Part shown: one piece after another, positions 10,443 to 31,649 of the stretch
Layout: each line of letters begins with the position of its first letter
How positions within the stretch are numbered: position 1 is the stretch's first letter
Source of the DNA: a virus
Length of the DNA: 31,649 nucleotides
Virus record (IMG/VR): IMGVR_UViG_3300048026_000431
Span: 1 to 31,649 of that record
Strand: one strand, 5' to 3'
Translations under genes and position numbers: made by a program
The notes under the pieces: model-generated
Seen by the model: the letters and a program-made list of their open reading frames with translations, nothing else
The model's database searches: none
Told to the model about the DNA's origin: nothing

Positions 10443-10454
10443 CTTATCTTTTTC

Positions 10455-10483
10455 TTGACATTTGACCTATACGAGTGTATAAT
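10455..10483 (+). promoter_or_regulatory. Sigma70-type promoter, perfect consensus
   Basis: TTGACA (10455-10460) and TATAAT (10478-10483) are separated by exactly 17 bases. Both hexamers match the bacterial housekeeping consensus without a mismatch. Transcription should start near 10490, giving a leader of about 20 bases with GGAGA before the ATG at 10510. It lies in the 67-base gap between the structural block and the accessory block, so it is the likely entry point for host-polymerase transcription of the accessory genes. Confidence 0.85.
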
Positions 10484-10509
10484 TACTATTATACCTTTGG
10501 AGATGTTGT

Positions 10510-10857
10510 ATGGACGAAAAACTAGCAAAAGCACTTGAAGCAAGTAACTTGCTTGACACAATTAATCAGCAAAAAAAGATACTACAACAGCAATATGATG
10601 CTGGACTAATTCATTACGAAAATGGGTGCCAATTTACATCTAGTAAAGAACTAATTAGTTTTTGTCAAAGTTTAATATCATTAGAGCAAGATCAAATTGT
10701 TCTAATAGACGATAATGGACTTCCTTCTTTAATAGAAGATTTACCTGTGTTTACAAAAAATCTAGTAAACACATATGCAACAGCATCTAACAAATACTTC
10801 AATGAATATAACAAATTAAAAAAACAACGTTCAGTTGCAGGCATATTTAATGACTAA
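10510..10857 (+). CDS. Small conserved-type phage protein of unknown function (115 aa)
   Basis: A 115-residue charged protein without signal or membrane segments. The first 40 residues are helical and heptad-like (LEASNLLDTINQQKKILQQQ). A middle motif, 'HYENGCQF' followed by 'LISFCQSLI' and 'IVLIDDNGLP', leads to a second helical stretch ending in 'YNKLKKQRSV'. From memory, proteins of this shape occur beside tail genes in marine T4-like phages, but no function is known to me. GGAGA lies eight bases before the ATG, directly downstream of the sigma70-type promoter. It overlaps the next gene by eight bases. It might be an assembly factor or a cofactor for the enzymes downstream; neither can be shown. 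Confidence 0.6.
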   Translation: MDEKLAKALEASNLLDTINQQKKILQQQYDAGLIHYENGCQFTSSKELISFCQSLISLEQDQIVLIDDNGLPSLIEDLPVFTKNLVNTYATASNKYFNEYNKLKKQRSVAGIFND

Positions 10858-11680
10858 AGGTATTCTTGTTTTTGCACACAATAATGCTGAAATAGATTAC
10901 GTAAAACAAGCGGCATTTCTTGCTGGTAGAGCAAAAGAATATCTTAACTTGCCAGTTAGTATTGTAACTGATAAAGAAAGTATTGGTGACAGATATAAAG
11001 ATTGGTTTGATAAAATTATCATTAATGAAATACCAACAGCGTCAACTAAAAAGCAATATTACAATGGAGCAAAAACTCACAGTGTTTTAGAATTTAAAAA
11101 TGACAATCGTTGCCTAGCATACGAGCTTAGTCCGTATGATGAAACACTAATGTTAGACAGTGACTATGTTATAGCAGATGATGTATTCAAAAATTGTTTT
11201 ACTAGTACATACGATTTTTTATTATACAAAGACGCTATAGATATCGCCGGCAATAGAGATACTGGTGAATTTAGTACCATAAGCGAAACAAGTGTAGATT
11301 TTTATTGGGCAACTTGCGTGTTCTTTAGAAAGACAGAATTAAACAAACGCTTTTTTGATTTAATAAAACATATACAAGAATACTATACACACTACAGGAA
11401 AGTATATAATATTCAATCAACAACATATCGCAACGACTTTGCATTTAGTATTGCAATTCATATAATGAACGGATTTAAACAAGGCAACTTTGCAAAAAAA
11501 ATGCCCGGTAGATTATTCTTTACAGCAGACAGAGATATATTACATTCTATAGACGGAGATAAGTTTATCTTTCTGCTACAATGTAAAGACTCGCTAGACA
11601 ATTTTAGCCCTTGTCAAATTCAAGGCAACAGTGTGCATGTAATGAACAAGTATACTTTGGAGGATAATTTAAGTGCCTAA
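10850..11680 (+). CDS. Glycosyltransferase-like protein with DxD motif (GT8-like)
   Basis: A 276-residue protein from the ATG at 10850. A TTG start at 10835 would add five residues, but the ATG start aligns with the next gene's N-terminus (ILVFAHNN...DYVKQAAFLA versus ILVAQNT...DYVKQACALA). The N-terminal Rossmann-like strand, 'SIVTD' near residue 40 and D103-S104-D105 (MLDSDYVIAD) fit the nucleotide-sugar and metal-binding core of GT-A, family 8-like transferases. No transmembrane segment is present, so it is cytoplasmic. It overlaps the preceding gene by eight bases. The acceptor is unknown; role is inferred from the fold pattern. Confidence 0.6.
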   Translation: MTKGILVFAHNNAEIDYVKQAAFLAGRAKEYLNLPVSIVTDKESIGDRYKDWFDKIIINEIPTASTKKQYYNGAKTHSVLEFKNDNRCLAYELSPYDETLMLDSDYVIADDVFKNCFTSTYDFLLYKDAIDIAGNRDTGEFSTISETSVDFYWATCVFFRKTELNKRFFDLIKHIQEYYTHYRKVYNIQSTTYRNDFAFSIAIHIMNGFKQGNFAKKMPGRLFFTADRDILHSIDGDKFIFLLQCKDSLDNFSPCQIQGNSVHVMNKYTLEDNLSA

Positions 11681-12509
11681 TTTTATTCTTGTTGCCCAAA
11701 ATACATTAGAAGTAGATTATGTAAAACAGGCGTGTGCTCTTGCTATGAGTATACATGCAACTACTCCAAACAGCAAAATTAGTATACTCACTGATGACAA
11801 AGTACCTGCAAAGTATAAAGGCTTGTTTGATCTCATAATCAAAATACCTTGGGGAGACTTAGCAAACAAGTATGATTGGAAAATACACAATAGATGGAAA
11901 ACGTATTTTATTTCACCCTATGAAGATGCAATAGTGTTAGATACAGATATGCTTGTACTTGAAGATATTACATCTTGGTATGATTATTTACAACAGTATG
12001 ACATGTTTCTAACATCAACAGTATTTGATTACAGAGGAAACAAAATTACAGATACGTTCTATAGAAAGAATTTTGCCAAGCACAACTTGCCCAACACTTA
12101 TATGGGGTTACATTATTTTAAGAAAAGCGACTTTGCACTAGAGTTTTACACCTGGTTAGATACTATTACAAATAACTGGAAAGAATTTTACAAACTAGGT
12201 GGCGAAAAACAAATACAAAATTTTGCAAGTATGGACCTTACAGCGGCAATGACTGTAGATATACTTGATTGCAAATCAAAAGTTACTAATGAAAATGTAT
12301 CAGTTCCTAGTTTTACACACATGAAAGCAAATATACAAGGGTGGAATGACCTTAGAGAAAGTTGGCAAACTAAAGTTGGCACATATTTTACTGATGATGC
12401 TGAACTGTACATAGGTAACTATAAACAATCTGGTATATTTCATTACACAGAAGATGACTTTTTAACAGATGATATTGTGCAAGTGCTAGAAAAAAGGGTA
12501 AATTTATGA
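11673..12509 (+). CDS. Glycosyltransferase-like protein with DxD motif, paralogue of the preceding gene
   Basis: A 278-residue protein beginning at GTG, preceded by GGAGGA about eight bases upstream and overlapping the preceding stop by eight bases. It shares the N-terminal 'ILV...DYVKQA.ALA' strand-helix with the preceding gene. It has ISILTDD near 37-42 and a clearer catalytic-type motif D90-T91-D92 within IVLDTDMLVLED, as in GT-A glycosyltransferases using nucleotide sugars and Mn/Mg. A later 'THMK' near 220 could be the metal-binding His region seen in family 8-like enzymes, but I am not certain. The tandem pair suggests duplication, with each copy possibly adding a different sugar. Confidence 0.65.
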   Translation: MPNFILVAQNTLEVDYVKQACALAMSIHATTPNSKISILTDDKVPAKYKGLFDLIIKIPWGDLANKYDWKIHNRWKTYFISPYEDAIVLDTDMLVLEDITSWYDYLQQYDMFLTSTVFDYRGNKITDTFYRKNFAKHNLPNTYMGLHYFKKSDFALEFYTWLDTITNNWKEFYKLGGEKQIQNFASMDLTAAMTVDILDCKSKVTNENVSVPSFTHMKANIQGWNDLRESWQTKVGTYFTDDAELYIGNYKQSGIFHYTEDDFLTDDIVQVLEKRVNL

Positions 12510-13081
12510 TTGTTTTAGAAACGCCCAAATACGAAATAGTATACAAAGTATATTTTGATAAGAATACAGGCAATATTTTGTCTATCTCAAATGTAGAACA
12601 AGATATAGAAAATTCCTTTGTAGCAGATATAGATGATATTAGACCGTATATCAATGGTGAAAAAAGTATTACAAGACACAAAGTAATCTATGACATAAAA
12701 ACGTCAGCATATGTTATTGTAGACAAGTACAAAAAAATAGAATCAGATGTAAACGACAATGTTTATAAAATTGAACAGCAAAACAATGCACAAATTTTTG
12801 TGCAATATATAAAATCTACAAATAAATGGAAAATAACACTGTCGGACACAGCTAAAAAAGATTTATCGACAAAGAAAGAACTTATTAACCAAAGATTACA
12901 GTTTAGCATTACTCAAAAAAATAATCCTAATATCTTGTACGAATATTTTACAACAACTGTAGAACTGTTGTTAGACGAACCTATAATTATTGATAGCCAG
13001 AGTCAGTATGATTTTGACAATTTTAGTGTATATACTAATAGGAAGTTCCAAAAGTATTCGTGCGAGGTTGTAGATGGATAA
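12506..13081 (+). CDS. Unrecognised 191-aa protein
   Basis: A 191-residue Lys/Asp/Ile-rich protein with no signal, membrane segment, Cys cluster or catalytic motif that I recognise. The N-terminus has a beta pattern (YEIVYKVYFDKNTGNILSI), and the middle repeats Tyr-Lys-Ile strands. It starts in an ATGA overlap with the upstream glycosyltransferase-like gene and ends eight bases inside the next gene, so it is translated as part of the operon. It may be a binding or scaffold protein, or the protein modified by the neighbouring enzymes; both are speculation. Confidence 0.5.
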   Translation: MIVLETPKYEIVYKVYFDKNTGNILSISNVEQDIENSFVADIDDIRPYINGEKSITRHKVIYDIKTSAYVIVDKYKKIESDVNDNVYKIEQQNNAQIFVQYIKSTNKWKITLSDTAKKDLSTKKELINQRLQFSITQKNNPNILYEYFTTTVELLLDEPIIIDSQSQYDFDNFSVYTNRKFQKYSCEVVDG

Positions 13082-13964
13082 AATTAAAATTATTGACCAG
13101 GACATTATCTTTTTGTCCTACGATGAACCCAATGCAGAAAAAAATTATGCTGATTTATGTAACAAATTACCATGGGCAAAACGTGTACACGGTGTAGATG
13201 GGTCAGATGCCGCACATAAAGCATGCGCAGATCTTAGTGAAACAGAATATTTTGTTACTGTTGATGGCGATAACATCATTGACACTGAATTCTTACAACA
13301 AGAAATTGATATTGAAAAATTAGGAGTCACACCTGACCACGTTTTTAGTTGGTGCGGCAATGTTCATGTAAATGGACTGATGTACGGCAATGGCGGACTA
13401 AAATTATGGACACGTAAATTTGTTCATAACATGAAAACACATGAAAACAGCGATTCTGATGATACCGCAGGCCTAGTGGAATTCTGTTTTGATGAAAAAT
13501 ATTACCAATTTAATGACAACTACAGTACAAGTTACACAAACGCTACCCCATTTCAGGCATGGAGAGCAGGTTTTCGTGAAGGTGTTAAAATGAGCCTAAA
13601 TGAAGGGGCAAAACACGTTGACATACAAAACATTTGGTGGCAAAATTTAGACAGATTACGCATTTGGTGTAGCATTGGTGCCGATGTAGAAAATGGTAAC
13701 TGGAGTATGTTAGGAGCAAGGATGGGTTGCTATATGACTATGTGTACAGATTGGGATTACACAAATGTACGTGACTTTAAATACCTAACTAGTTACTGGA
13801 AAGATGAAAAAGTTGCTGATTTAGATGTTAGCTCTGAACTATTTAGATATGGCAACCTTATACGATCAGAATTAAACTTAGAAATTGCTGATATAGACGC
13901 ATTAGGAAGCAAGTTCTTTAAAAGTGTTTACCACAATACTCCAAGGATTATTAAAAAGAGATGA
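13074..13964 (+). CDS. GT-A-like protein with DGD motif
   Basis: A 296-residue protein. The N-terminal strand DIIFLSYDEPNAEKNY is followed by a helix and VTVDGDNII, where D64-G65-D66 is a DxD-type metal/nucleotide-sugar motif. Further on are 'NGLMYGNGGLKLW' and a Trp/Tyr-rich C-terminal half. The same series (FISYKEPNAD, VVDGDADM, NGLQYGNGGVKLL) appears in the last module of the gene at 21097, so the two are homologous. No transmembrane part is seen. It most likely transfers or binds a sugar nucleotide. The next gene, a radical SAM enzyme, starts in an ATGA overlap. Catalytic activity is inferred from the motif alone. Confidence 0.6.
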   Translation: MDKIKIIDQDIIFLSYDEPNAEKNYADLCNKLPWAKRVHGVDGSDAAHKACADLSETEYFVTVDGDNIIDTEFLQQEIDIEKLGVTPDHVFSWCGNVHVNGLMYGNGGLKLWTRKFVHNMKTHENSDSDDTAGLVEFCFDEKYYQFNDNYSTSYTNATPFQAWRAGFREGVKMSLNEGAKHVDIQNIWWQNLDRLRIWCSIGADVENGNWSMLGARMGCYMTMCTDWDYTNVRDFKYLTSYWKDEKVADLDVSSELFRYGNLIRSELNLEIADIDALGSKFFKSVYHNTPRIIKKR

Positions 13965-15337
13965 ACACCGAATTAATTAGGATTAAGGAAATAATGCCGG
14001 GTGTTGAAAAAGAGACTTCACCTACTTTTTGTTTGGCTAAATGGCATCATGTAACAATCTATTTACAAACTGGCGAAACACATAGTTGTTATCATCCTGC
14101 TCCCCACAAGATTCCGTTAGAAGGCCTTGAACAAAATCCTAGTCAACTACATAATACTCCACAAAAGAAACAAGAACGACTTGCTATGCTTAACGGCCAA
14201 AAGCCAGCAGGCTGTCAGTACTGTTGGAATATTGAGTGTATGGGCAAAGACTATGTTAGTGACAGACATATAAAGACAACCAGCATTTATACACCAGAAC
14301 GCATTGAAGAAATAAAAAATAATCCTTGGGATTACGATATAAATCCTGAATACATTGAAGTTAACTTTAGTAATGAATGTAATTTTAAATGCGGTTACTG
14401 TCATCCTAAATTTAGTAGTAGATACTACAGCGAAATAAAACAAAACGGACCATATAGTAATAGTACAGAACACCGTAATGATATTGACTGGTTTGAATTA
14501 TATGAAGAAGATACTAACCCTTATGTAGACGCATGGTGGAAATGGTGGCCTGAAGTAAGCAAGACACTAAACATTTTGCGTGTAACTGGCGGCGAACCAT
14601 TAATGCATAAAAGCACATGGCGGCTGTTTGACGAACTAGAGCAAAATCCTAAGCCACACCTTAATATTGAACTTAATAGTAACATGGGCGTTAAGCCTGC
14701 AATGGTATACAGGCTAGTAGAGCGTGTAAAAGATCTAAAAGAAAAAGGTTGCATCAATAGTTTTAAATTATACACAAGTATTGACACTTGGGGTAAACGT
14801 GCAGAATATACACGTACAGGTTTAGATGTTGAACTATGGGAACGTAACTTAGATTACTATCTTACAGCAACAGGTTGGCCTGTAACATTTATGGTTACAT
14901 TTAATTTATTTGTAGTTACAAGTTTTAGTTCTTTGTTAGAAAAAATATTAGAATGGCGTACAAAGTATAACACTGACGCAAACGAAACACAATGGCAACG
15001 TGTAAGATTTGACACACCTTATCTTAAAGAGCCTTTGCAATTTGATATGAATATTTTGCCTAAGGATGAATTTTTACCTTACATGGAAAAACATCTAAAG
15101 TTTATAGAAGAAAATACAGATGATAAAGATAGAACAAAATTTAGTTCTCTTGAATTTGAAAGATTTAGACGTGTAATAGACTATATGAAAAATACTAATT
15201 ATGATCAAGATAAAGTTATACACGGCATGCGTAACTTCTATTCTTGGTTTAGTGAGTATGATAAACGTAGAGGTACAAACTTAGTTGAAACTTTTCCTGA
15301 GTTAGAACATTTTTACAAGGACTGTAGCAATGTCTAA
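13961..15337 (+). CDS. Radical SAM protein with N-terminal Cys-rich (twitch-like) domain
   Basis: A 458-residue enzyme. The radical SAM core carries C140-x3-C144-x2-C147 (CNFKCGYC), which binds the [4Fe-4S] cluster that cleaves S-adenosylmethionine, and TGGEP at 209-213 for SAM binding. Before the core lies an extra Cys region (C24 in FCLAKWHH, C43, C85-x2-C88, C93), the order seen in 'twitch-domain-containing radical SAM' proteins with the auxiliary-cluster region at the N-terminus. The ending 'ETFPELEHF' matches that of the radical SAM gene at 26980. It starts in an ATGA overlap and overlaps the next gene by eight bases. Substrate unknown; sugars, peptides or lipids are all possible for this family. 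Confidence 0.85.
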   Translation: MNTELIRIKEIMPGVEKETSPTFCLAKWHHVTIYLQTGETHSCYHPAPHKIPLEGLEQNPSQLHNTPQKKQERLAMLNGQKPAGCQYCWNIECMGKDYVSDRHIKTTSIYTPERIEEIKNNPWDYDINPEYIEVNFSNECNFKCGYCHPKFSSRYYSEIKQNGPYSNSTEHRNDIDWFELYEEDTNPYVDAWWKWWPEVSKTLNILRVTGGEPLMHKSTWRLFDELEQNPKPHLNIELNSNMGVKPAMVYRLVERVKDLKEKGCINSFKLYTSIDTWGKRAEYTRTGLDVELWERNLDYYLTATGWPVTFMVTFNLFVVTSFSSLLEKILEWRTKYNTDANETQWQRVRFDTPYLKEPLQFDMNILPKDEFLPYMEKHLKFIEENTDDKDRTKFSSLEFERFRRVIDYMKNTNYDQDKVIHGMRNFYSWFSEYDKRRGTNLVETFPELEHFYKDCSNV

Positions 15338-16616
15338 AAAATTAAACTTTGCATATCAATGGATTGGACCAAACGGACCAATAACTAATAACAGAATACC
15401 TACAATAGCAGATCTATCTTGGGCTTTAAATAGCGAACATCGCCCGCCACGAGACTTATTACAAGAACCTCATTTTCATACAAGGTTTGGCGATGATGCA
15501 AATATTGTAAGTTGCCATAAGATACCCAAAGGTAAGTTTTTATACGAACTTAATTTTTCACCCTATCATTATAGGAACTGGCGGAAACTGTTTAGTATTA
15601 ATGACGGTCCATTTTCCAATCAAGCATTTACTCAAGAAGACATAGATTATCTACTTGCAAACAATGGTTATTTTTTAGTTACAATTTTATTTGAAGGATG
15701 GGCACACGATCAATTATTTGATGAAATGTCAAGGTTCTTTACACATTATAACATACCGTTAGACAGAGTAATTTATGTTACTAACTGTCATAATGTATCT
15801 GAGATATACAACAACTATTGTAATAAAAGAAATGTACAGACTAAACTTAATGTAGAACATTTTCCTACATTTAGATATGATAGAACAAATTTAGAAGAAG
15901 TAACAAAAAAATACGTTACAACAGAATACGTATGCGGTCCAAGAGAAAAAGACTTCTTATGTTTTCAAAGACGGTATAATGATCAACGACTTGCATTTTA
16001 TATGGAAATGCATCGTAGTAATATGTTAGACAAGTTTTATATGAGCATGGATGCAACACAGCCAGAAAGTGGGCAATCATTTGAAAGCAACATAACACAC
16101 CTAGCAAATAGAAGACCAGAACTTAAAATTACACAAGAAGAAACAGTAGCGGCAAAACACAGTTTACCACTTATATTAGATACAACTAATTTTAGTTCTT
16201 ATCCTATGGAAGAAACACAATTCAGCACCGAACATTACTACCAAAATTCACTTATAAATATTATTCAAGAAACTTATTTTTACAGTCCAGAAATACACTT
16301 GACTGAAAAAACATTTAAGCCTATTGCATTTAAACAACCTTTTATAATGATAGGTGCAAAAGGTTCTTTAAGACATCTTAAAGATTTAGGGTTTAAAACA
16401 TTTAGTGACTTTTGGGACGAATCTTATGATAACCAAGAAGATAGTAAAAGAATGATAACTATCTTTAAACTAATTAATGAAATATCTAATTGGTCACAAG
16501 AGCAAAAAATACAATTAACAAAAGATGTAAAATCTATTCTTGATTATAATTGCAATCATTTTGATACAATGAAGCATCAAGAACTAGAACATTTTAAGGA
16601 GCAATATGGAAACTAA
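15330..16616 (+). CDS. Putative glycosyltransferase with TEK motif (fucosyltransferase-like), paralogue 1
   Basis: A 428-residue protein. The diagnostic part is C-terminal: YYQNSLINIIQE, then HLTEKTFKPIAFKQPFIMIG (TEK at residues 325-327), then a 'DLGFKTFSDFWDESYD' tail. The N-S-L, T-E-K and hydrophobic-Pro-Gly series resembles the donor-binding signature of GT10 fucosyltransferases (a GT-B fold). A mid-protein 'FLCFQRRYNDQR' motif also recurs in the genes at 17564 and 19940. No membrane segment is present. Together with the GDP-mannose epimerase-like gene just downstream, use of a GDP-sugar donor is a reasonable guess. Eight-base overlap upstream, 11-base overlap downstream. Confidence 0.55.
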   Translation: MSKKLNFAYQWIGPNGPITNNRIPTIADLSWALNSEHRPPRDLLQEPHFHTRFGDDANIVSCHKIPKGKFLYELNFSPYHYRNWRKLFSINDGPFSNQAFTQEDIDYLLANNGYFLVTILFEGWAHDQLFDEMSRFFTHYNIPLDRVIYVTNCHNVSEIYNNYCNKRNVQTKLNVEHFPTFRYDRTNLEEVTKKYVTTEYVCGPREKDFLCFQRRYNDQRLAFYMEMHRSNMLDKFYMSMDATQPESGQSFESNITHLANRRPELKITQEETVAAKHSLPLILDTTNFSSYPMEETQFSTEHYYQNSLINIIQETYFYSPEIHLTEKTFKPIAFKQPFIMIGAKGSLRHLKDLGFKTFSDFWDESYDNQEDSKRMITIFKLINEISNWSQEQKIQLTKDVKSILDYNCNHFDTMKHQELEHFKEQYGN

Positions 16617-17580
16617 AAAGAAAATATTAGTATGTGGAGCAGGCGGCTTCATAGGACATCATCTAGTTAACACACTAGTTGAACAAGGGCATTATGTAAT
16701 AGGTGCAGATATAAAACAACCTGCTTTTGAACCTACAAACGCACAAGAATTTTTTCAAGTAGATTTACGTAACCCAGACTTTGTTGCTGGTTGTGTAAAA
16801 TCTGATTTAGATGAAGTGTACCAACTTGCGGCAGATATGGGCGGAACAGGATATATTGGCATTGGCGATCATGATAGTGATATTATGCATAACAGTGCAT
16901 TGATAAATTTAAATGTATTACACGAAGCAACTAAAAAGGGCATAAAGAAAATCCTTTATACAAGTAGTGCATGCATTTATCCTGAACGTAATCAGTTAGA
17001 TCCTGACAATCCTTATTGTGAAGAGTCTAGTGCATATCCAGCAGAGCCTGATACAGAATACGGATGGGAAAAATTGTTTAGTGAAAGACTATATCTAACA
17101 CACAAGAAAAACTATGACATTGATGCAAAGGTTGTAAGACTACACAATGTTTTTGGCCCACTTGGAAGTTGGGAAGATGGCAAAGAGAAAGCACCAGCGG
17201 CACTGTGTCGTAAAGTTGCTGAAAGCGATGGTACTGTAGATATATGGGGACCAGGAAATCAAACTAGAAGTTTCTTGTATATAGAAGAATGTATTACAGG
17301 CTTACAAAAAATTATGGCAAGTAATATTGATCAACCAGTGAACCTTGGTAGCGAAAGAATGATTTCTATCAATGACCTAGCACAACTTATAGGACAAATT
17401 GCCGGTAAGAATACTTTAGAAATTAACAATGTAGATGGTCCAATTGGCGTGATGGGTAGAACTAGTCATAACAATCTTATTGAAGAATTACTTGGATGGC
17501 GCCCTAGTGAAGATTTAGAGTATGGACTTAAACATACCTATGCATGGATAAAGGATAAAGTTGATGAGCGTACACAGTAA
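16606..17580 (+). CDS. GDP-mannose 3,5-epimerase homologue (extended SDR)
   Basis: A 324-residue extended short-chain dehydrogenase/reductase with GAGGFIG at 11-17 for NAD. It shows the full motif set of GDP-mannose 3,5-epimerase: ADMGGTGYIG (76-85), SSACIYPE with Cys123, YPAEP, Tyr152-x3-Lys156 (YGWEK), EKAPAALCRK with Lys195, and QTRSFLYIEEC. In characterised enzymes the Cys of SACIYPE and the Lys of EKAPAA do the acid/base epimerisation at C3 and C5, giving GDP-L-galactose or GDP-L-gulose. All key residues are present and the length is close to the catalytic core of the plant enzyme, so it should be active. It is flanked by two putative transferases of the same paralogous family, the likely users of its product. 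Confidence 0.85.
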   Translation: METKKKILVCGAGGFIGHHLVNTLVEQGHYVIGADIKQPAFEPTNAQEFFQVDLRNPDFVAGCVKSDLDEVYQLAADMGGTGYIGIGDHDSDIMHNSALINLNVLHEATKKGIKKILYTSSACIYPERNQLDPDNPYCEESSAYPAEPDTEYGWEKLFSERLYLTHKKNYDIDAKVVRLHNVFGPLGSWEDGKEKAPAALCRKVAESDGTVDIWGPGNQTRSFLYIEECITGLQKIMASNIDQPVNLGSERMISINDLAQLIGQIAGKNTLEINNVDGPIGVMGRTSHNNLIEELLGWRPSEDLEYGLKHTYAWIKDKVDERTQ

Positions 17581-19352: not shown

Positions 19353-19358
19353 GGTAGC

Positions 19359-21096: not shown

Positions 21097-22074
21097 ATGT
21101 ATGATATAATATTTGTATCACCAAAGAATAACCAGTCTCAGTACAAGACATTATGTACGAAATACCCCACGGCTAAATTTGCAACTAGTTTTGAACAAGC
21201 ACAACGTAAAGCTCTAAGCGACATGTTTTATGTTGTTTGGGACGATGTAGATGTACAAGACAGTTTTACATTTGATTACGAAGTAGCTGAATGGGATAAG
21301 AAGTATGTACATACATTTTTAAATGATACGTACTTTGACGGCATATGTTTAGTTCCAAGAGATATACACATATCAACAAAAGAAATAAAACACAGATTTT
21401 TTGTAAACAAAAAAGAAGTTGATATAGTAGCAAGTATGCCAACTAGGTATGACGTTTTTTACATAGATTCTTATGAAGATTATGAAAATGCACTTGAAAA
21501 GTGTAATACCAATATGTTTTGGTGCATATGGAAGAACGTAGAACTAACCAAAAGTGTCATACTGGCGTCATACTTTAGTCATCATAACAGTTATGATAGA
21601 AATGAAAACCATGTATACAAAAATGCATGTAACGATGAAGAAAGTTATCACGGTGGCGTTGTACTTGCATCTGTTAACAAGCCTTTGTCTAAAAGAGAAG
21701 TAGAACATAGATTTTTAATCAACAGAAAAGAAGTTGATGTAGTTGTTAGTAGGTATAGATATCCAAGGTATGTTGTTGGCTCTTACGAACAGTATGAGAA
21801 AATACTTATAAAAGAAACTAGTCCGTTGTTTTGGCTAGTATGGGATAATGTTGACATTACAAATAAAACAATTTTTGACTTGTACTACAATCCCACAGAT
21901 GGTAGATATGATGCTGACAGAGAAATGCATCATGTGTATCAGCATTTATTTAAAGGCGAGGAAACATACCATAACGGTGTTGTGTTAACAACTACTAAGC
22001 ATACATTAGGTAGACGTGAATTTAACAGTAGGTATGTTGTAACAAGAAAAGAACACAAACACGTTATATCAAAA
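21097..22074 (+). repeat. Three tandem protein-level repeats of about 107-113 codons
   Basis: Units at about 21097-21435, 21436-21753 and 21754-22074 encode related modules. Each has a start strand, a tyrosine/glutamate-rich helix (SYEDYENAL, SYEQYEKIL), a Trp-Asp strand, a Gly-Val-Val-Leu strand and an ending REVxHRF-x-INRKEVDVVVS-like segment. DNA identity is limited, so the duplications are old. Confidence 0.7.
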
Positions 22075-24815: not shown

Positions 24816-25546
24816 AATTTGGAATATTAGGATATGGATATGTAGGTAAAGCTACACACAAGGGTTTGCTTCGTGATGCAAGAACTGTTGTGCATGACAT
24901 AACATTCGATACAGAAAAAATAATTTTAAAAGAATGCGATACAATATTTGTATGCATACCAACTGAAACACAAACAGATATTAATACTGTTATTTCTGAG
25001 ATAGCTGAAATACAAGAATTTAATCCTTCTGCAACATTCGTGATTCGTAGTACATTACCGTTAGGCGCAAGTGAACGTATTCAAGCATGTGTTGGTAGTA
25101 TAATTTACATACCAGAATTTTTACGTGAACGATATTGGGACACAGATTGCTTTAAGCGTCCGTTAGTTGTAGGTTGTGATAGTAAAGATTTACCACAGTG
25201 GTTATTAGATGACGAAATTAAAACTTGCTCTACAAAAGAAGCAGAGCTTATAAAAATGTTTTCAAATAACTTTGCAGTAATGCGTATTGCATTTGCTAAC
25301 GTATTTTATGATTTATCAGAAGACGTTGGCGCAGACTATAACAAAATACTAGACATGTACATGGATGTACAACAAGATCAAACTTACATGGAAGTTCCGG
25401 GGCATGACGGTACACGAGGATTTGGCGGTAAGTGCTTACCTAAAGATTTAGACTTCCTTATTGAAACACTTGATCAAAAAGGCATTAACCAGAATTGGTT
25501 TAAACATATAAGAGAGTTAAACAAAGGATGGAAAGAAAAGTTCTAA
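24812..25546 (+). CDS. Truncated UDP-glucose/GDP-mannose dehydrogenase-like protein
   Basis: A 244-residue protein with the NAD-binding motif GYGYVG (7-12), the central-domain segment ELIKMFSNNFAVMRI (K148, N152) and GFGGKCLPKD with C208 and D212, the nucleophile region of UDP-sugar dehydrogenases. Full enzymes are about 390-450 residues with a third domain that binds the UDP part. This one stops soon after the catalytic Cys and lacks that domain. No frameshift remnant is seen, since the next gene starts inside its 3' end, so this is a shortened form rather than fresh damage. It could make a uronic acid nucleotide with a partner, or act on another substrate. Confidence 0.75.
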   Translation: MKFGILGYGYVGKATHKGLLRDARTVVHDITFDTEKIILKECDTIFVCIPTETQTDINTVISEIAEIQEFNPSATFVIRSTLPLGASERIQACVGSIIYIPEFLRERYWDTDCFKRPLVVGCDSKDLPQWLLDDEIKTCSTKEAELIKMFSNNFAVMRIAFANVFYDLSEDVGADYNKILDMYMDVQQDQTYMEVPGHDGTRGFGGKCLPKDLDFLIETLDQKGINQNWFKHIRELNKGWKEKF

Positions 25547-26394
25547 CAGGTCATAAAGGATTCATAGGAAGTCATTATTACAACTATGTAAAAGACACCT
25601 ATGAGGTATATTCTTATGATAGAAAGAATGGCGAAGTTGACGATCTAAGCAACAACAATGTCACTAGCAAAATGCCGGACTGTGATATTGTAGTCCATCT
25701 AGCGGCCACTAACGGTACAAGGTTGTTTTATCAACAGCCTACTGATATTATTATTAACAATACACTTCCAACAATTAACTTAATTGAACGTTATAGAAAC
25801 ACAAACACAAAGTTTGTATTTGCTAGTACTTGTGAAATATTCAACAGTACAATAGACAACGGCTATTACCATGTACCTACTGATGAAGCGGTGCCAGTTA
25901 TGTACAATGACATTACAAATCCACGTTGGAGTTATAGCATACCAAAAGCACTAGGTGAAAACTTAGTTGCTAATAGCGGACTTGAGTATCTTATCATACG
26001 TTACTTTAATGTATACGGTCCAGGACAAACAGATCACTTTGTAAATGAGTTTGTAGAACGCTGTAAACAAGGCGAGTATTATATTAACGGCAATGACACA
26101 CGTAGTTTTTGCTACGTTGACGATGCTGTACGTATGACAGATATGCTAGTAAAAACTACTAGTAACAATACCGTAAACGTAGGACAAGACGTAGAAACAC
26201 GTATAAGTATTGTAGCAAAACTAATAATGGGATATATGGGAATTAATCCAGACAGACTTGAAATACGTCCTGCACCGAATGGTAGTGCAACACGTAGGTG
26301 CCCTGATACAACATTAGTACAAACACTTACAGGTTTTACAGATTATACACCTTTAGATGTAGGCCTAAAAAAGACATTGGAAAGTTTATTATGA
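25528..26394 (+). CDS. NAD-dependent sugar epimerase/dehydratase/decarboxylase (extended SDR)
   Basis: A 288-residue extended SDR: GHKGFIG (8-14), VVHLAA near 55-60, ASTCEIF with S100/T101, Y136-x3-K140 (YSIPK), IIRYFNVYGPGQ and RSFCYVDDAV. The catalytic Ser/Thr-Tyr-Lys set is complete. The pattern fits UDP-glucuronate decarboxylase, dTDP-glucose dehydratase or a UDP-sugar 4-epimerase, and I cannot separate these by eye. Because it follows a UDP-glucose dehydrogenase-like gene with a 19-base overlap, a uronate-consuming step such as decarboxylation to a pentose is an attractive guess. It ends in an ATGA overlap with a methyltransferase-like gene. Confidence 0.75.
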   Translation: MERKVLTGHKGFIGSHYYNYVKDTYEVYSYDRKNGEVDDLSNNNVTSKMPDCDIVVHLAATNGTRLFYQQPTDIIINNTLPTINLIERYRNTNTKFVFASTCEIFNSTIDNGYYHVPTDEAVPVMYNDITNPRWSYSIPKALGENLVANSGLEYLIIRYFNVYGPGQTDHFVNEFVERCKQGEYYINGNDTRSFCYVDDAVRMTDMLVKTTSNNTVNVGQDVETRISIVAKLIMGYMGINPDRLEIRPAPNGSATRRCPDTTLVQTLTGFTDYTPLDVGLKKTLESLL

Positions 26395-26987
26395 AAGTAG
26401 ATATGCAAGATGTATTATTTTGGATGGATGCTATTCGTAATAGTGAAGATAGATATCGCACACTTGAAAGTTTTTGGAAAGGCCAAATAAACAGCAAACT
26501 TTGGCTAATACAACAGATGCAAGAACATAAACTTGCAGGCAGTGTTGCTATATACGGTGGATGGAATGGTGTACTTGCAAGTTTACTTTTCAATAGTGAT
26601 CTTACTATTCCAGAAATAGAAAGTATAGATATTGATCCTAGTTGTAAGCCCATTGCGGAAACAATTAATATGCGTTATCATATGCAAGGCAGATTTTTTG
26701 CTACAGCCGCAGATATGTGTGAGTACACTACTGATGCAGATATTGCTATTAATACAAGTTGCGAACATTTAACACAAGAACAATACGATACATGGCTAGA
26801 CAATTTACAAGCAGGAACAAGAGTTGTATTACAAAGTAATAATTATTTCGAACATGAAGAACACGTAAGATGTGTTAACAATATGGAAGAGCTTATACAA
26901 CAGTCAAATGTGCATGTAAGTTATGTAGGCGAATTAGAAATGCCAAAATACACTAGATATATGATAATAGGAAAAAAGTATGGATAA
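26391..26987 (+). CDS. Class I methyltransferase-like protein (198 aa)
   Basis: A 198-residue protein with a SAM-binding motif I variant (VAIYGGWNGVLASLL, 52-66), an acidic second motif ESIDIDPSC (D80, D82) and INTSCEHL in the motif IV position. A conserved 'RTLESFWKGQINSKLWLI' helical part precedes the Rossmann region. No membrane segments. Start and end overlap neighbours by four and eight bases. A methyltransferase fold is likely; the target is unknown, and the unusual GGWNG loop leaves open a SAM-binding but non-methylating role. Confidence 0.55.
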   Translation: MKVDMQDVLFWMDAIRNSEDRYRTLESFWKGQINSKLWLIQQMQEHKLAGSVAIYGGWNGVLASLLFNSDLTIPEIESIDIDPSCKPIAETINMRYHMQGRFFATAADMCEYTTDADIAINTSCEHLTQEQYDTWLDNLQAGTRVVLQSNNYFEHEEHVRCVNNMEELIQQSNVHVSYVGELEMPKYTRYMIIGKKYG

Positions 26988-28389
26988 AGATTGGTATCAC
27001 GATAAAGATACTCAACTAGGTAAGTATCAAAGACTGATTGAGAAAGAATCAGGATCTCCTACTTTCTGTGTTTTACCTTGGATACATTTTGCAACCAGAC
27101 CAAATGGAGATATGCGTTTGTGTTGTAGTAGTAATGCTAGTGGCGCAGGTTCCGACCATGAAGTTGGTCTAGTTAAAATGGAAGACGGCAGGCCTGCAAA
27201 CTTTGGTAAAGATACTCCTATGGAAGCATGGAACAATGACTACATGAAAAGTGTACGTAAAACTATGATGAATGGTGAAATACCTGCTAGTTGTCGTAAA
27301 TGTTTCCAAGAAGAAAAAGTAGGAGTTGTAAGTAAACGTGTTTGGGAAAGCGGAACGTGGCACGAAGATGGTGTAGACATTCCACACCTAATTGAGCAAA
27401 CTAAAGAAGATGGCACAGTACCGGAAGAGTTAGTTTATTTAGACTTGCGTTTAGGACATACTTGTAACATTAAATGTGTAATGTGTAGTCCACATGATTC
27501 TAGTAAGTGGGTAGCAGATCATAAAAAACTTATTCCTGTATTACAAGACCCTGATGTTAAAAGACAAATGCAATGGGATAGATCAGAGTTTAATAATAAG
27601 TGGCACGAAAAGGATACGTTTTGGGAAGAAATGAATGCACAAATTCCAAACCTAAAACAAGTATACTTTGCCGGCGGTGAGCCTTTAATGATTAAAGAAC
27701 ATAAAATGTTCATTGAAGAAATATTACGCCAAGGCTATCAAGATAAGATATTACTACGTTATAACTCTAACGGGTTATTAGTTGACGAAGACTTAATTGA
27801 AATGTGGTCAAAGTTTAAGAAAGTTAAATTTGCTATTAGTATGGATGCTAGTCACGAGCGTGATGAGTATATACGTTTTCCTACAAACTTTGATACTGTA
27901 GAAAAAACTTTGCATATGCTTGACAATACACCTGACAATATACAAACAAGTTTAGCAACAGCAATACAAATATTCAACGTAAAACACTTGCCAGACTTTA
28001 TGAAATGGAAAGTTGAAAGCGGGTTTAAAAAACTAAATGCAGGAACAGTACCAGGCGGAACACAAATGGGCGGCGGCTTAGTTAATATGCATTTACTGTA
28101 TATTCCAACATTTCTTAGTATACAAATATTACCTAAAGAAGACAAGCAGGATGTTGAAGAACGTTTTATGGATTTTAAAGATTGGCTATGGAACAATTAT
28201 AGACAAGACGATGATTATTGGAAACATAATCCTTATGGGTGGAAACGTTGGGAAGCTGTACTTAAACATATGAATGCACAAGACAATAGTCATATGCTAC
28301 CTGGATTTAAAGAATATACTAATAAGTTAGATAATATTAGAGGACTAAACGCGGCAACCGTGTTTCCTGAGTTAGCGCATCTGCTCTAA
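26980..28389 (+). CDS. Radical SAM protein with N-terminal Cys-rich (twitch-like) domain
   Basis: A 469-residue enzyme. The N-terminal auxiliary region has FCVLPWIHFATRPNGD (C30), RLCCSS (C48, C49) and C105-x2-C108. The radical SAM core has C162-x3-C166-x2-C169 (CNIKCVMC) and AGGEP at 231-235. The ending 'FPELAHLL' matches the gene at 13961. This order, auxiliary cysteines before the core, defines the same subfamily as the genes at 13961 and 30343. It starts with an eight-base overlap and is the last + strand gene. Its final 53 bases are shared with a convergent minus-strand gene. Substrate unknown. Confidence 0.85.
   Translation: MDKDWYHDKDTQLGKYQRLIEKESGSPTFCVLPWIHFATRPNGDMRLCCSSNASGAGSDHEVGLVKMEDGRPANFGKDTPMEAWNNDYMKSVRKTMMNGEIPASCRKCFQEEKVGVVSKRVWESGTWHEDGVDIPHLIEQTKEDGTVPEELVYLDLRLGHTCNIKCVMCSPHDSSKWVADHKKLIPVLQDPDVKRQMQWDRSEFNNKWHEKDTFWEEMNAQIPNLKQVYFAGGEPLMIKEHKMFIEEILRQGYQDKILLRYNSNGLLVDEDLIEMWSKFKKVKFAISMDASHERDEYIRFPTNFDTVEKTLHMLDNTPDNIQTSLATAIQIFNVKHLPDFMKWKVESGFKKLNAGTVPGGTQMGGGLVNMHLLYIPTFLSIQILPKEDKQDVEERFMDFKDWLWNNYRQDDDYWKHNPYGWKRWEAVLKHMNAQDNSHMLPGFKEYTNKLDNIRGLNAATVFPELAHLL
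28337..28389. other. Tail-to-tail overlap of two convergent coding regions
   Basis: The last 53 bases of the + strand radical SAM gene and of the minus-strand 371-aa gene coincide, so both strands are coding and no terminator hairpin separates the two transcription units. The + strand peptide here (ending FPELAHLL) is conserved in the paralogue at 13961. Confidence 0.7.
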
Positions 28390-29452
28390 GAGTAAAATTA
28401 ATCTTAACATCGGATAATTTACTGTGTAGACAATATTCCAGTAAACTTTCTGCTTTAATTCTATCTTCCAAACTATATTGTGCAACAGTTCCTTCGTAAC
28501 AAAATATATTAGATAAGTTTACTAGTGTTTTCATTTTAGGATCTAAGTGGTCTACAATTGATAACTCTTCTAGTAAGTTAGTGTACACAAACACATACTC
28601 TATGTGTTCCTTACGTGGACATACTTCTTTCCAATAGTCTAGAGCTTTTTGATTATAGTCATAAAATACCACACGACCAGCATCAATTAAATCTAAGTAT
28701 AATGTTCCACTAGCAGGTAAAACAACTTGTTCGTACTTTTCATCTATACCTGTAGACCATTCAGTGTTGTTTGTATGTACAAACTCGTTCTTACAGTAAT
28801 CTAGTTTTTCTTGTATCAAATGACAATGTTTATAATAGTCATCTTTGCTTTCAGGATAATAATGTATTTTGTTGTTTCTAATACTGTCATCAAAAACAAC
28901 TACAGGCAGATCGTTTTCAAATGCTATTTTTAGTAAATTCCAACCATGACATTTATGCTCGTATGTTACTTTATTAATTCCTGTACTAACAAATTTAGGG
29001 GTATAATCGTCGTGTATATTGTTTAAACTACGTGTAGGTTCTAGTTGGGTATGTTGTACGTCTTTTTCAAAACAACCTACTGTAGGGCCCTTATATGCGT
29101 TATAAACCGCCATATTAACCACATAGCACTGATGATGTAGTTCGTAGTATGCATTATGCATAGTTCTATCTAATACGTGTCCTGCTATAAAAAAGTCTCT
29201 TTTTACAAGTTCTTCTATAGCCTCAAAAAACGCAATTCCGTTAATTATTTCTGTACCAGGACTCATTACAACAGCATGCTTGTAACCATTTGCAAGTTGT
29301 AAAAGTTTATCTTCATTGTCCCCTACTAGAACTTCATAACCTTTTGTTTTTATATTTGCGATTGTAAAATTTGCTATATTGGTAATTGTTGTTTTGATAT
29401 CTTGAGAATCATAACTATCTATATCATTAACTATGCAAAAAACAATAGACAT
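28337..29452 (-). CDS. Unrecognised 371-aa protein, possibly with a methyltransferase-like C-terminal part
   Basis: A 371-residue soluble protein with no Cys cluster or DxD. The N-terminal half contains VVMSPGTEI and HGWNLLKIAFENDLPVVVFDD. The C-terminal half has GTLYLDLIDAGRVVFYDYN, YVFVYTNLLEEL and TLVNLSNIFCYEGT. The LDLIDAG...YDYN and NLSNIF pieces could be motifs I/II and IV of a Rossmann methyltransferase, but the similarity is weak. AAGG precedes the ATG, one base after the upstream minus-strand stop, so it is cotranscribed with the radical SAM genes. Its 3' end overlaps the + strand radical SAM gene tail-to-tail by 53 bases. Confidence 0.55.
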   Translation of the reverse strand: MSIVFCIVNDIDSYDSQDIKTTITNIANFTIANIKTKGYEVLVGDNEDKLLQLANGYKHAVVMSPGTEIINGIAFFEAIEELVKRDFFIAGHVLDRTMHNAYYELHHQCYVVNMAVYNAYKGPTVGCFEKDVQHTQLEPTRSLNNIHDDYTPKFVSTGINKVTYEHKCHGWNLLKIAFENDLPVVVFDDSIRNNKIHYYPESKDDYYKHCHLIQEKLDYCKNEFVHTNNTEWSTGIDEKYEQVVLPASGTLYLDLIDAGRVVFYDYNQKALDYWKEVCPRKEHIEYVFVYTNLLEELSIVDHLDPKMKTLVNLSNIFCYEGTVAQYSLEDRIKAESLLEYCLHSKLSDVKINFTLRADALTQETRLPRLVL

Positions 29453-29453
29453 T

Positions 29454-30350
29454 TTATTTTACCTTTGTAAGTGGAATATCAGCGGCACATGTACACCATT
29501 TACGTGTACAGATAATTGATTGTGTTGGATAATCAAAACTACCGTTGTATATATTACCTAAACTTCCACCAACTCTACATGTTGCTCGATGAACTTCACC
29601 GTCCCAGTTAATCATTAAACTTTCTACACCAGCATTGCATTTCCAACCTTCAAAAGAATTTAATTTTTCTTTTATTACATCATTGGCATGCATTTCTTTA
29701 TCATCGTCAATAATTACATTAGATTTTGCTGTTGCTGTTTTGTCAAGAATCCATTTTAAGTCATCGCCTTTATATCGCATATCGTCAAACCAGTCACGGT
29801 CATCTGCTTCAGTCCATCGTATTCGTCTAATGACATACGGTACAATATGAGTGTCAAACATGCGTGTAACTTCTCTTACCTTTTGCATATGTTCGTGATG
29901 TGCCATAATATTAAGTTGGAAAGGTAAGTTATCAACTTCGTTGTTTTGCGCCCATACTAAAACGTTGCTTACAACTTTATCAACAATATCGTTGTCAAAA
30001 TGTATACTAAACACGTAATGGTTTACCGGCAACTTAATATAGAAATCATATGGTAATGTACCGTTTGTTGTAATGTTTATCCATTCAACTTTATCTCTTG
30101 CATATGCAAGTATTTCTTTTATATTAGGATGTACACACGGTTCTCCGCCTGTGAAACTTAGTCTTATAGGTTTACCTATTTCTACTAACTTGTCAATTGC
30201 ATCTTTAAATGTTTGCAAAGGAGTATGCGGGCTAAAGTTATCGTGTATTGCGGCTGGACAATACCCACAATCTAAATTGCAACGTTTGCCCATATTCCAT
30301 TCAACGTGAATACTATCTTGGTGAGGCCACTTGCTTATAATTTTATACAT
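29454..30350 (-). CDS. Radical SAM protein with C-terminal Cys tail (298 aa)
   Basis: A 298-residue enzyme from the ATG at 30350. A GTG eight codons upstream is possible, but the ATG gives the same eight-base start/stop overlap common in this region. C24-x3-C28-x2-C31 (CNLDCGYC) and TGGEP (67-71) define the radical SAM core. The C-terminus has WKCNAG (C238), C258 and IICTRKWCTC (C281, C286, C288), parallel to the + strand gene at 23829 (WSCNAG...). It lies between a second radical SAM gene and the 371-aa gene in one minus-strand operon. No substrate can be assigned. Confidence 0.8.
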   Translation of the reverse strand: MYKIISKWPHQDSIHVEWNMGKRCNLDCGYCPAAIHDNFSPHTPLQTFKDAIDKLVEIGKPIRLSFTGGEPCVHPNIKEILAYARDKVEWINITTNGTLPYDFYIKLPVNHYVFSIHFDNDIVDKVVSNVLVWAQNNEVDNLPFQLNIMAHHEHMQKVREVTRMFDTHIVPYVIRRIRWTEADDRDWFDDMRYKGDDLKWILDKTATAKSNVIIDDDKEMHANDVIKEKLNSFEGWKCNAGVESLMINWDGEVHRATCRVGGSLGNIYNGSFDYPTQSIICTRKWCTCAADIPLTKVK

Positions 30351-31614
30351 ACAACTTAAACTCTGGATTTGCACTTAGGAAATCTTGGTTTCGTGTTTTG
30401 TCTAATCTTTTGTTGAATTCTATACAGTCTTGCCAGTGTGTATTGTACATACATTTTGCTTGTAAGAAATTAATATTATCTTGTATCTGCTGTAGTGTAA
30501 CTTTTTTAAGTAAATTGTTTTCTTGTACTAGTTTATAACTTAAAACTTTTTCTTTCATGTCTTCTAAATCACTTACAACTTTTTCTTTTAGTTCTGGCGG
30601 CAATACTTGTGCAGATAGTGACATAGGATAATTTACTCTATGCGAATAAAATATAATACCCATGTCATTTAAGAAGTAGTCTATAACATCGCAGATTTGT
30701 AAAATGTTATTTGCTTGTACAGTAAATGCGCCTACTACTCTACTTACATTAGGAAAGCTCTTAAATACTTTTACGTTTTCTTCTACTTCACTAAATTTAC
30801 CATTACCTCTAATGTATTCGTATACATCGTGTATGCCGTCTATACTTACATTTACAGCAACACTTTTAAACTTAGGCCAATAGTCGTGTATAGTGCGCCC
30901 GCCTTTTATACCTAGTGTAGTACCGTTTGTAGCATATTTTATTTCTATGTTTTTACCATACGGAGCAAGCATATCTAATATTTTATAGTGATAAGGGTCC
31001 ATTAATGGTTCACCACCTGCAAACTCTACACGTCTAAAATATGGTAAGAGTTTTTCAAAACTTGCCCACCAGTTATCTGAGTTGTCAAACGGTCCTATAT
31101 ATTGTCCTGGTTTTTCTACAAGTGCATCAACAGTCGGTATAAGATAGTTATTTTCTTTTTTGTAAAACTCTGTAACTTGATTCCAGTCTTTCCAACTTGT
31201 ACTATCCAACGGATTACACATACGACACTTTAAGTTACACAAGTTATTAAGTTTAATTTCCATTGTAGGAAGTTCAAACGGCATACTATAGTCGTCTTCT
31301 AACGCATCTAATGCATCTGGGTATAAGTTGACTCTTGCTTCTGGTATAACTCCTGCTATATGACGCTGACGTAAGCTCTCTACACCCTGATCTTCTAAGT
31401 CAAAACACGGTTTGCAAACATCTGGTCGTTCGTTATTTAAAACTTGGCGTCTAACTTCTTTCATCTTGTCGCCATTCCAAACTTCTTCTAAGGTTTGGTC
31501 TTGTATAAACCCAATAGGCTGACTACGACAGCATACTTTAATAGCACCATCTTCTCGTGTAGCAAGTCCTGTAAAAGGATGCATGCAAAATGTACAACTA
31601 TTTGACTTTTTCAA
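30343..31614 (-). CDS. Radical SAM protein with N-terminal Cys-rich (twitch-like) domain, TTG start
   Basis: A 423-residue enzyme with N-terminal cysteines C7, C10 (CTFCMHPF), C28-C29 and C67-x2-C70, then the core C126-x3-C130-x2-C133 (CNLKCRMC) and AGGEP at 199-203. The same domain order is seen at 13961 and 26980. The start at 31614 is TTG with a GAGAG element about eight bases upstream. The frame stays open to the window edge, so the true start could lie beyond it, but the FC-x2-P segment normally sits close to the N-terminus. It overlaps the next minus-strand gene by eight bases. Confidence 0.8.
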   Translation of the reverse strand: MKKSNSCTFCMHPFTGLATREDGAIKVCCRSQPIGFIQDQTLEEVWNGDKMKEVRRQVLNNERPDVCKPCFDLEDQGVESLRQRHIAGVIPEARVNLYPDALDALEDDYSMPFELPTMEIKLNNLCNLKCRMCNPLDSTSWKDWNQVTEFYKKENNYLIPTVDALVEKPGQYIGPFDNSDNWWASFEKLLPYFRRVEFAGGEPLMDPYHYKILDMLAPYGKNIEIKYATNGTTLGIKGGRTIHDYWPKFKSVAVNVSIDGIHDVYEYIRGNGKFSEVEENVKVFKSFPNVSRVVGAFTVQANNILQICDVIDYFLNDMGIIFYSHRVNYPMSLSAQVLPPELKEKVVSDLEDMKEKVLSYKLVQENNLLKKVTLQQIQDNINFLQAKCMYNTHWQDCIEFNKRLDKTRNQDFLSANPEFKLYV

Positions 31615-31648
31615 GTGCCCACTCTCGTTCTTTGCACCAAAAACATTC
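31598..31648 (-). CDS. Extreme 3' end of an upstream minus-strand gene (partial)
   Basis: A minus-strand frame enters from the window edge and ends at TAG (31598-31600), giving 16 residues, ECFWCKEREWALEKVK. The C-x2-C and charged helix look protein-like, and a 17-base overlap with the following radical SAM gene fits the style of the region. Too short to identify; chance is possible. Confidence 0.35.
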   Translation of the reverse strand, partial: ECFWCKEREWALEKVK

Positions 31649-31649
31649 T

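Follow-up and report, generated by a model that had tools for sequence, protein, structure and literature searches.

A recurring radical SAM core in a variable island beside the fibre genes of an uncultivated phage

Introduction

Why would a phage carry six radical S-adenosylmethionine (SAM) genes, together with sugar-nucleotide, oxygenase and transferase-like genes, next to the genes of its fibres? The question is raised by IMG/VR virus record IMGVR_UViG_3300048026_000431, a linear record of 31,649 bases that was analysed over its full length and is called the window below. An earlier note on this DNA had proposed a pathway for a heavily modified glycan or glycopeptide, serving fibre decoration or remodelling of the host surface. 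We define here a core of radical SAM genes, a methyltransferase-fold gene (MT0), a GT-A-fold gene (GTx) and a QueC-like PP-loop gene, which lies inside a varying shell of sugar genes. A glycan or surface role for the island, counting both an envelope and a virion target, is probable. For the more specific reading, in which the operon produces a radically modified sugar and transfers it, most likely to envelope glycans of the infected cell and in second place to virion glycans, our belief and our doubt are about equal.

Results

Island layout and radical SAM proteins

Along the window, a giant structural gene that is already open at the start is followed by fibre-type genes to 10442 and then by the island, in which 19 genes are on the plus strand (10510-28389) and three convergent ones on the minus strand (28337-31647). 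Neighbours among the 19 either overlap or are separated by no more than 20 nucleotides, which makes them one packed operon; the window covers the left portion of an extended variable island beside fibre genes.

The six radical SAM proteins counted in the earlier note, each with an intact CX3CX2C motif, were all recovered. A genome search gave six PF04055 matches at these genes, all above the cut-off and free of internal stops, and the motif occurs once in each (6 of the 22 island proteins, against 0.035 expected from shuffling). Three exceed the cut-off of 170 for the twitch-domain radical SAM model NF033640: TW18 (13961..15337, plus strand; 322 bits), TW2 (26980..28389, plus strand; 396 bits) and TW6 (30343..31647, minus strand; 331 bits). 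TW18, in which the motif reads CNFKCGYC at residue 140, scored 27.7 bits with PF04055 in hmmscan, slightly under the cut-off of 29.5, and the frame of TW6 is open to the contig edge, where a TTG start at 31614 would agree with its length in relatives. The remaining three are rA (22775..23839, plus strand), rB (23829..24815, plus strand) and rC (29454..30374, minus strand), with PF04055 scores of 34.6, 47.7 and 52.8 bits, respectively. The NF033640 cut-off was not reached by rA (37.4 bits) or rB (38.7 bits), and the model was absent from the best 25 of the 49 NCBIfam matches of rC; nor was any NCBIfam cut-off passed by rA among its 23 matches, by rB among the best 25 of 39 or by rC among the best 25 of 49. 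The best solved-structure match of the rA profile was cytosylglucuronate decarboxylase, a weak match at superfamily level that would fit a uronic-acid substrate.

Two other functions are suggested by matches of these proteins. In the first, counter-defence or host takeover would proceed through modified nucleotides made by a viperin-like enzyme, and PADLOC indeed gives rC a pVip match of 56 bits, and viperin structures match it at about 2e-6. However, the best pVip stretch spans only residues 22-146 of 306, the best NCBIfam viperin score, that of rC, is 43.5 bits against a cut-off of 180, and PADLOC found no full viperin, leaving this function very unlikely. In the second, SPASM/twitch radical SAM proteins, the oxygenase and a methyltransferase would mature a ribosomal peptide, as in ribosomally synthesized and post-translationally modified peptide pathways. 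SPASM-type domains are present in TW2 and TW6, and there are weak matches to peptide maturases, but none of the radical SAM proteins reached a maturase cut-off among the best 25 matches per protein, and an operon with gaps of at most 20 nucleotides has no intergenic space for a precursor gene (small open reading frames within genes or elsewhere were not sought). We therefore regard peptide maturation as improbable. For the modified-glycan pathway proposed earlier, the linkage of radical SAM, GT-A-fold and methyltransferase-fold genes in a packed operon counts in favour.

A conserved core inside a variable shell

Across related viral contigs the same cassette recurs, namely GTx, rA, rB, MT0 and TW2, often with more radical SAM genes, opposite rC and TW6, and then the PP-loop gene. 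Open reading frames were clustered over 104 sources (99 loci, the window and four longer records), some of which derive from one and the same contig; the loci had been fetched with TW2 or rB, so these two are present by construction. Among the 104 sources, MT0 was found in 103, rA together with the PP-loop family in 102, TW2 in 99, rB in 87, rC in 74, GTx in 67 and TW6 in 64, and the shell families UGD, UGD15, two SDR (short-chain dehydrogenase/reductase) families and the 2-oxoglutarate (2OG) oxygenase in 32, 16, 12, 11 and 9, respectively. Because of the way these loci had been fetched, contigs were also fetched with MT0, and 77 of 80 loci were analysed, three having been fetched earlier. All 77 carry at least one radical SAM gene, 64 carry at least three and 60 carry at least three with an intact CX3CX2C motif; rB is present in 71, TW2 in 66, rA in 61, GTx in 57, rC in 37 and TW6 in 28. 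Thus, the co-occurrence of families for which the earlier note had suggested looking is real: radical SAM, GT-A-fold and methyltransferase-fold genes travel together, and this fits a modified-glycan pathway. Relatives of TW2 occur in 347 IMG/VR stretches and relatives of MT0 in at least 593.

The core is conserved and, judged from substitution patterns, is under selection. In blastp comparisons with the related records G001 and G002, TW2 and TW6 are 84-89% identical, TW18, rB and rC 61-66%, MT0 57-60% and rA 34-35%, and the fibre genes are 22-40% identical, except for the gene at 2133 with 73%. Ratios of nonsynonymous to synonymous substitution rates (dN/dS) were 0.025-0.14 for pairs of TW2, TW6, TW18, rC and MT0 and 0.10 for rB in the informative pair G001 and G002; several of the dS values exceed 1, and rA and rB show hardly any differences from a third relative, G013.

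The PP-loop gene lies just past the window's edge in G013, between rA and TW2 in other relatives, and beside TW6 or rA in many of them, and 47 family members keep the PP-loop motif. In one locus (L035:8131-10005), rA and the QueC-like PP-loop protein are naturally fused into a protein of 624 amino acids. The QueC likeness raises the possibility that the genes modify bases of the phage DNA, in the manner of 7-deazaguanine, and a related record also carries QueE-like and FolE-like genes (G002:C1:62730-64309, L120), recognized by inspection of their first residues only, which would point to deazaguanine metabolism in another part of that genome. Although the G001 homologue has a QueC-like cysteine pattern by inspection, the phage PP-loop protein scored 16.2 bits with Pfam QueC, below the cut-off of 22, a QueC match was obtained in only 1 of 22 records, and the core sits with GT-A-fold genes. 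Base modification is accordingly a far-fetched explanation of the core.

Sugar-nucleotide, transferase and methyltransferase proteins

The sugar enzymes read from the sequence in the earlier note withstood profile searches. The gene at 16606..17580 (plus strand) encodes what its sequence makes a clear GDP-mannose 3,5-epimerase homologue, with 295 bits to the solved enzyme 2c59 and only 93 bits to the next family. A UDP-sugar dehydrogenase-like protein with the motif GFGGKCLPKD (24812..25546, plus strand; PF00984/PF03721) is only 244 amino acids long; this short length is kept across 32 family members (237-264 amino acids), and the C-terminal domain of UDP-sugar dehydrogenases had no match in it. 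Also upheld were the further SDR, which is epimerase/dehydratase-like (25528..26394, plus strand; PF01370, 121 bits), and the 2OG-Fe(II) oxygenase (18672..19352, plus strand; PF13640, 56 bits against a cut-off of 27).

Of about seven transferase-like proteins proposed, two gained support. The AlphaFold2 (AF2) model of GTx (13074..13964, plus strand; pLDDT 86.5) matched SunS, RmlT and TarP in Foldseek (E 2e-5 to 1e-3, TMq about 0.3-0.4) and B4GALNT1 in VIA (Z 10.6), and its D64 and D66 are invariant in nine sequences; GTx thus has a predicted GT-A fold that carries a DXD-type motif and is a putative glycosyltransferase. The gene at 21097..22782 (plus strand) encodes a paralogue of GTx, 30% identical, with a long N-terminal region. 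Its counterpart in the otherwise near-identical G013 (9572-11797, L114) has 741 amino acids and is 180 longer; the extra part looks by eye like a repeated unit, and segments of the window protein align to several places in it, although a blastp self-comparison listed no internal repeats in the paralogue. The mutually related putative glycosyltransferases at 10835 and 11673 (10835..12509, plus strand) matched PF11051 and NF045582, both below cut-off, and profile searches gave no family match above cut-off for 15330, 17561 and 19940.

Of the two proteins called methyltransferase-like, MT0 (26391..26987, plus strand) has an AF2 model (pLDDT 88.6) that lies nearest NodS (TMq 0.67, E 4.5e-10) and points to a class I methyltransferase fold, while profile searches assigned nothing to 19359. 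Nothing useful came from PDB sequence searches with MT0, the PP-loop protein, GTy (A6) or the 28337 family (A7).

A separate sigma-70-type promoter sequence at the fibre-island border

The 67-nucleotide gap between the fibre genes and the island contains a sigma-70-type promoter, TTGACA-17-TATAAT, with 12 of 12 positions matching (10455..10483, plus strand). To its right, the first gene of the operon (10510..10857, plus strand) encodes a protein of 115 amino acids with orthologues in G001 and G002 and marks the left end of the island. Relatives were fetched with this gene, giving 23 loci, 22 of them with sufficient DNA upstream; eight of these are identical copies, leaving 14 distinct upstream sequences that are related by descent, one of them equal to the window's. 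Nine of the 14 hold a perfect site, and 12 deviate from it in no more than one position; the sequence shared by G001 and its copies has two mismatches and another sequence three, and in G002 the site is present with a weaker -10 element. In 4000 shuffled sequences a perfect site never arose and a site with at most one mismatch arose eight times. A homologue of 10835 lies downstream of the first island gene in all 23 loci. A second sigma-70-like promoter (21062..21090, plus strand; 11 of 12) precedes the GTx paralogue and is also found upstream of its G013 orthologue.

Sigma-70-type sites in T4-like phages mean early expression, and from its sequence the enzyme operon could plausibly be read by a host-type polymerase separately from the fibres. 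The late-type motif ATAAATA, which occurs 22 times in 88 upstream regions of four records against 0.36 expected, is found in none of the 22 regions upstream of the first island gene. It precedes the wedge gene of G001, a G001 gene for a protein of 3920 amino acids, the window gene at 6714, several genes without an assigned role and island genes. For the exact T4 late motif TATAAATA, the window shows no enrichment, with 2 occurrences where 6.8 are expected. Divergent spacers within the island (G013 21173-21878 and 32810-33509, G001 19087-19807) carry ATAAGTATT or ATAAATA, some of them near-palindromic, and these motifs are perhaps a variant late promoter.

These results bear on whether the fibres encoded upstream are targets of the enzymes, through glycosylation or another modification that would alter host range or stability. 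In favour of such virion decoration, fibres adjoin the island in the window, in G001, in G002 and in 21 of the 23 first-gene loci, rA has diverged as much as the fibres (34-35%), late-type motifs stand in the divergent island spacers, and a second radical SAM-like cluster of G001 lies a few genes past another giant gene, that of 3920 amino acids. Against it, the fibre-island border has its own sigma-70-type promoter, and TW2 and TW6, at 84-89% compared with 22-40% for the fibre genes, do not track the fibres. The fibre decoration offered as one option by the earlier note is accordingly weakened to a rather unlikely one, and host-surface remodelling, the other, is preferred.

Phage lineage and multiplicity of radical SAM genes

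The window is not a chimera or a piece of bacterial chromosome: the order of fibre genes and island is identical in G001 and G002, the position of the island relative to fibre and baseplate genes is constant, and 21 of the 23 loci retrieved through the first island gene show the junction again, the remaining two starting too near that gene. The earlier note's reading of the DNA as phage is therefore sound. G001, the longest relative fetched whole (159,618 bases), carries T4-type portal, capsid, sheath and wedge genes, and other related records reach 261,806 and 267,783 bases; of 17 related records, mainly fragments, 8 contain gp23. Among the best 25 of 2486 matches, the G001 capsid protein is 69-72% identical to those of large cultured T4-superfamily phages such as Phosso, Vibrio 2.275.O, PA5oct and GAP32, and among the best 15 of 66 its wedge protein is 36-39% identical to those of Phosso, Atu_ph07, SCTP-2 and PA5oct. 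The window's own genes cover the fibre region and include no capsid gene; we place it by synteny with G001 and G002, which makes it by inference an uncultivated T4-superfamily myovirus near the Phosso/PA5oct-type jumbo phages and not a pelagimyophage. Seawater-type names of metagenome-assembled genomes (MAGs), together with general knowledge of such phages, suggest that its host phage is probably marine.

The statement in the earlier note that phage radical SAM genes are usually single does not hold in this lineage. All 22 long relatives, picked for length among TW2-search and related contigs, carry 4-15 PF04055 matches. Around the structural gene at 2133, 80 loci contained a radical SAM gene of the compared families within 10 kb in only 2 cases and GTx about 9.5-10 kb downstream in 14; because this flank was too short, whole records were counted. 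In 24 records picked by hand for length from these loci, at least one PF04055 match (E 1e-6) was found in 20, at least five in 16 and none in 4, which are fragments of 41-52 kb, and every one of the 21 records that reach 60 kb (6 long relatives, 13 found through 2133 and two picked with MT0) has 5-18 matches. Named phages, counted at E 0.001 and with some matches under cut-off included, gave 11 matches each for Campylobacter phages CP21 (three with an internal stop), CJLB-12 and CP220, 6 for Vibrio phage K566, 4 for Phosso, 2 for Mosig, one each for HTVC008M, SynMITS9220M01 and GAP32, and none for Vibrio 2.275.O and PA5oct; yet, with 0 or 1 in 5 of 11, the older statement does describe some of them. 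The second cluster of G001 (G001:C1:112630-122655, L111-L112), beyond the 3920-amino-acid gene, encodes nine CX3CX2C proteins, seven of which have no blastp relatives in the island set; one was scanned and gave no Pfam match.

The same island was found in no cultured phage when TW2, TW18, rC, rA, GTx and MT0 were used as queries. TW2 and TW18 matched only Vibrio phages K566/K567 (24-27%), rC matched 9 records (23-35%), rA 5 records (21-25%) and GTx none, and the sole relative of MT0 in 50,697 phage records was that of Mosig. The DNA of window positions 1-8000 gave no match to cultured phage records.

Related operons on bacterial contigs

A scan of a species-genome collection returned 52 loci. 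Two of them, L133 and L134, from MAGs titled Bacteriovoracaceae and Halobacteriovoraceae, contain an rA-TW2-rB block with MT0 and GTx. Their operon resembles that of the phages in that rA, TW2 and rB are 33-56% identical, MT0 and GTx are 32-41% identical and a PP-loop gene is present, and it differs in lying on MAG contigs whose genomes yielded no gp23 and, in L134, in being accompanied by GT2 glycosyltransferases. In L134, the only bacterial locus whose neighbours were scanned with Pfam, these are three GT2 genes, next to a flavin amine-oxidase-like protein, a QueC-family protein (27 bits, over the cut-off of 22) and weak matches to TMEM260-like, Asp/Asn-hydroxylase and aminotransferase families; MT0 and GTx of L134 matched no Pfam family. 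The position of this operon beside GT2 genes is the best hint that the core takes part in glycan work. For two other loci gp23 was found on a different contig of the same MAG (L157) or was not seen in the genome (L135). Two candidates, L136 (PAAV01000055.1) and L137 (NZGL01000008.1), which are filed under Chloroflexi and Gammaproteobacteria MAGs, were set aside as probable phage, since their gp23 coordinates fit the same contig.

Structural genes and a gene of the shell

The giant gene at the left edge (3..2111, plus strand), with its frame open at the contig edge, encodes the C-terminal part of a structural protein with a weak tail PHROG match; it is 31-32% identical by blastp to proteins of G002 and G001 with 4325 and 4637 amino acids. 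The next gene (2133..2753, plus strand) encodes a conserved structural-region protein (phrog_11259, 243 bits; 73% to G001). Five fibre or virion structural genes follow at 2753, 4840, 6714, 8224 and 9264 (2753..10442, plus strand), a stretch recognized by PF07484 and by tail and virion PHROGs, although 8224 and 9264 themselves are unassigned; 2753 encodes the tail-collar domain PF07484, and 2753, 4840 and 6714 are 35-39% identical by blastp to G001. Among the convergent minus-strand genes, the shell gene at 28337..29452 (minus strand; dN/dS 0.27) encodes a protein of 371 amino acids that had no match in Pfam, the PHROG families or a PDB sequence search.

Discussion

From linkage, predicted folds, selection and the promoter sequence we infer a substrate, an order of steps and a target as follows. 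Shell enzymes would supply activated sugars, for example GDP-L-galactose and uronic acids, and the core radical SAM enzymes would perform radical C-H chemistry on the sugar or sugar-nucleotide. The PP-loop enzyme may activate a carboxylate for amide or nitrile formation, MT0 may add a methyl group, and GTx and its neighbours may attach the product to a glycan. An envelope glycan changed in this way could prevent superinfection or adjust adsorption. The time at which the product would be made can be simply predicted from the conserved promoter. More speculatively, and doubtful as yet, the radical SAM enzymes, the QueC-like ATP-dependent ligase and the methyltransferase might make a sugar of a new kind, such as an amidated or nitrile-bearing, radically rearranged uronic acid; large ocean phages would add it to the host envelope at an early stage of infection, and some marine bacteria that have a related operon would make it as well.

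Several observations weigh against a sugar made for the envelope. A known substrate was found for none of the core enzymes, and the named sugar-nucleotide genes belong to a minority shell, so the substrate of the core need not be a sugar. At superfamily level, rC matches viperin and the TW proteins match MoaA roughly as well as rA matches a sugar enzyme, the fold list of GTx includes nucleotidyltransferases such as MobA and IspD, and five putative transferases have no family or fold support of their own. The contrast in divergence covers only part of the core, with rB, rC and TW18 at 61-66% and rA at 34-35%. Late-type motifs stand in divergent spacers within the islands of G001, G002 and G013, and therefore not the whole island need be early. 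Finally, the QueC-family protein of L134 had no blastp match to the phage PP-loop protein.

If the core does make a modified sugar, large phages would hold a widespread and undescribed glycan chemistry. Hundreds of viral contigs carry parts of the core, and we found no reaction described for any member. The literature searched likewise gave no reaction for the NF033640 twitch subfamily, within which three of the six window proteins fall while the other three lie outside it.

Comparison with known systems

Searches of the open-access PMC literature listed no paper seen to name the twitch radical SAM/methyltransferase/QueC-like core or its promoter. Three papers do describe phage modules with several radical SAM genes (PMC2853527, PMC5332604, PMC7029224), so that the earlier note's view of the combination as undescribed is not supported. 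Other papers describe radical SAM genes as a rare feature of IBB_35 (PMC3322345), list radical SAM and glycosyltransferases among Tasman Sea phage genes (PMC7150976) and report one radical SAM protein in one phage cluster (PMC10783043).

Campylobacter phages CP220 and CPt10 have 11 and 12 radical SAM genes, respectively, with an exchangeable module of five (Timms 2010, PMC2853527). This module lies near baseplate genes, and two of its neighbours are annotated with sugar-transferase domains; these phages differ in that the closest radical SAM protein is 24% identical to rA over 79% and an amidinotransferase is annotated in the module. The T4-like ocean genome TARA_ERS488813_N000010, of 183 kb, has 12 radical SAM genes (Nishimura 2017, PMC5332604) and was set against the window by description; it also carries an Fe-S carrier gene, whereas PF01521 was found in 0 of 17 records here, mostly fragments. 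The cultured Pelagibacter phage Mosig EXVC030M has MoaA-annotated, sugar-aminotransferase, epimerase, oxygenase and methyltransferase genes between its fibres and VrlC, but only two PF04055 matches, one under cut-off, and its MT0 is only 26% alike.

Another described counterpart is the host-recognition cluster (HRC) of pelagimyophages, for which modification of the host O-chain and avoidance of coinfection were proposed (Zaragoza-Solas 2020, PMC7029224). It is a large island of hypervariable content that adjoins fibres and VrlC and includes glycosyltransferases, and cassettes with UDP-glucose 6-dehydrogenase and radical SAM genes are mentioned for it. By synteny the window has the same trait, an island with a variable shell beside fibre and baseplate genes, and in G001 the left border places the giant homologue of 4325-4637 amino acids next to a wedge gene. 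The systems differ in that pelagimyophages are SAR11 phages (HTVC008M is placed under Kyanoviridae), in that the far border described is gp14 there and ligase and ATPase genes in G001, where gp14 was not sought, and in that the passages available do not name the present core. The island of the window is thus a variant of a described kind, and what is new is the core, its promoter and the related operon that lies beside GT2 genes in a bacterial MAG.

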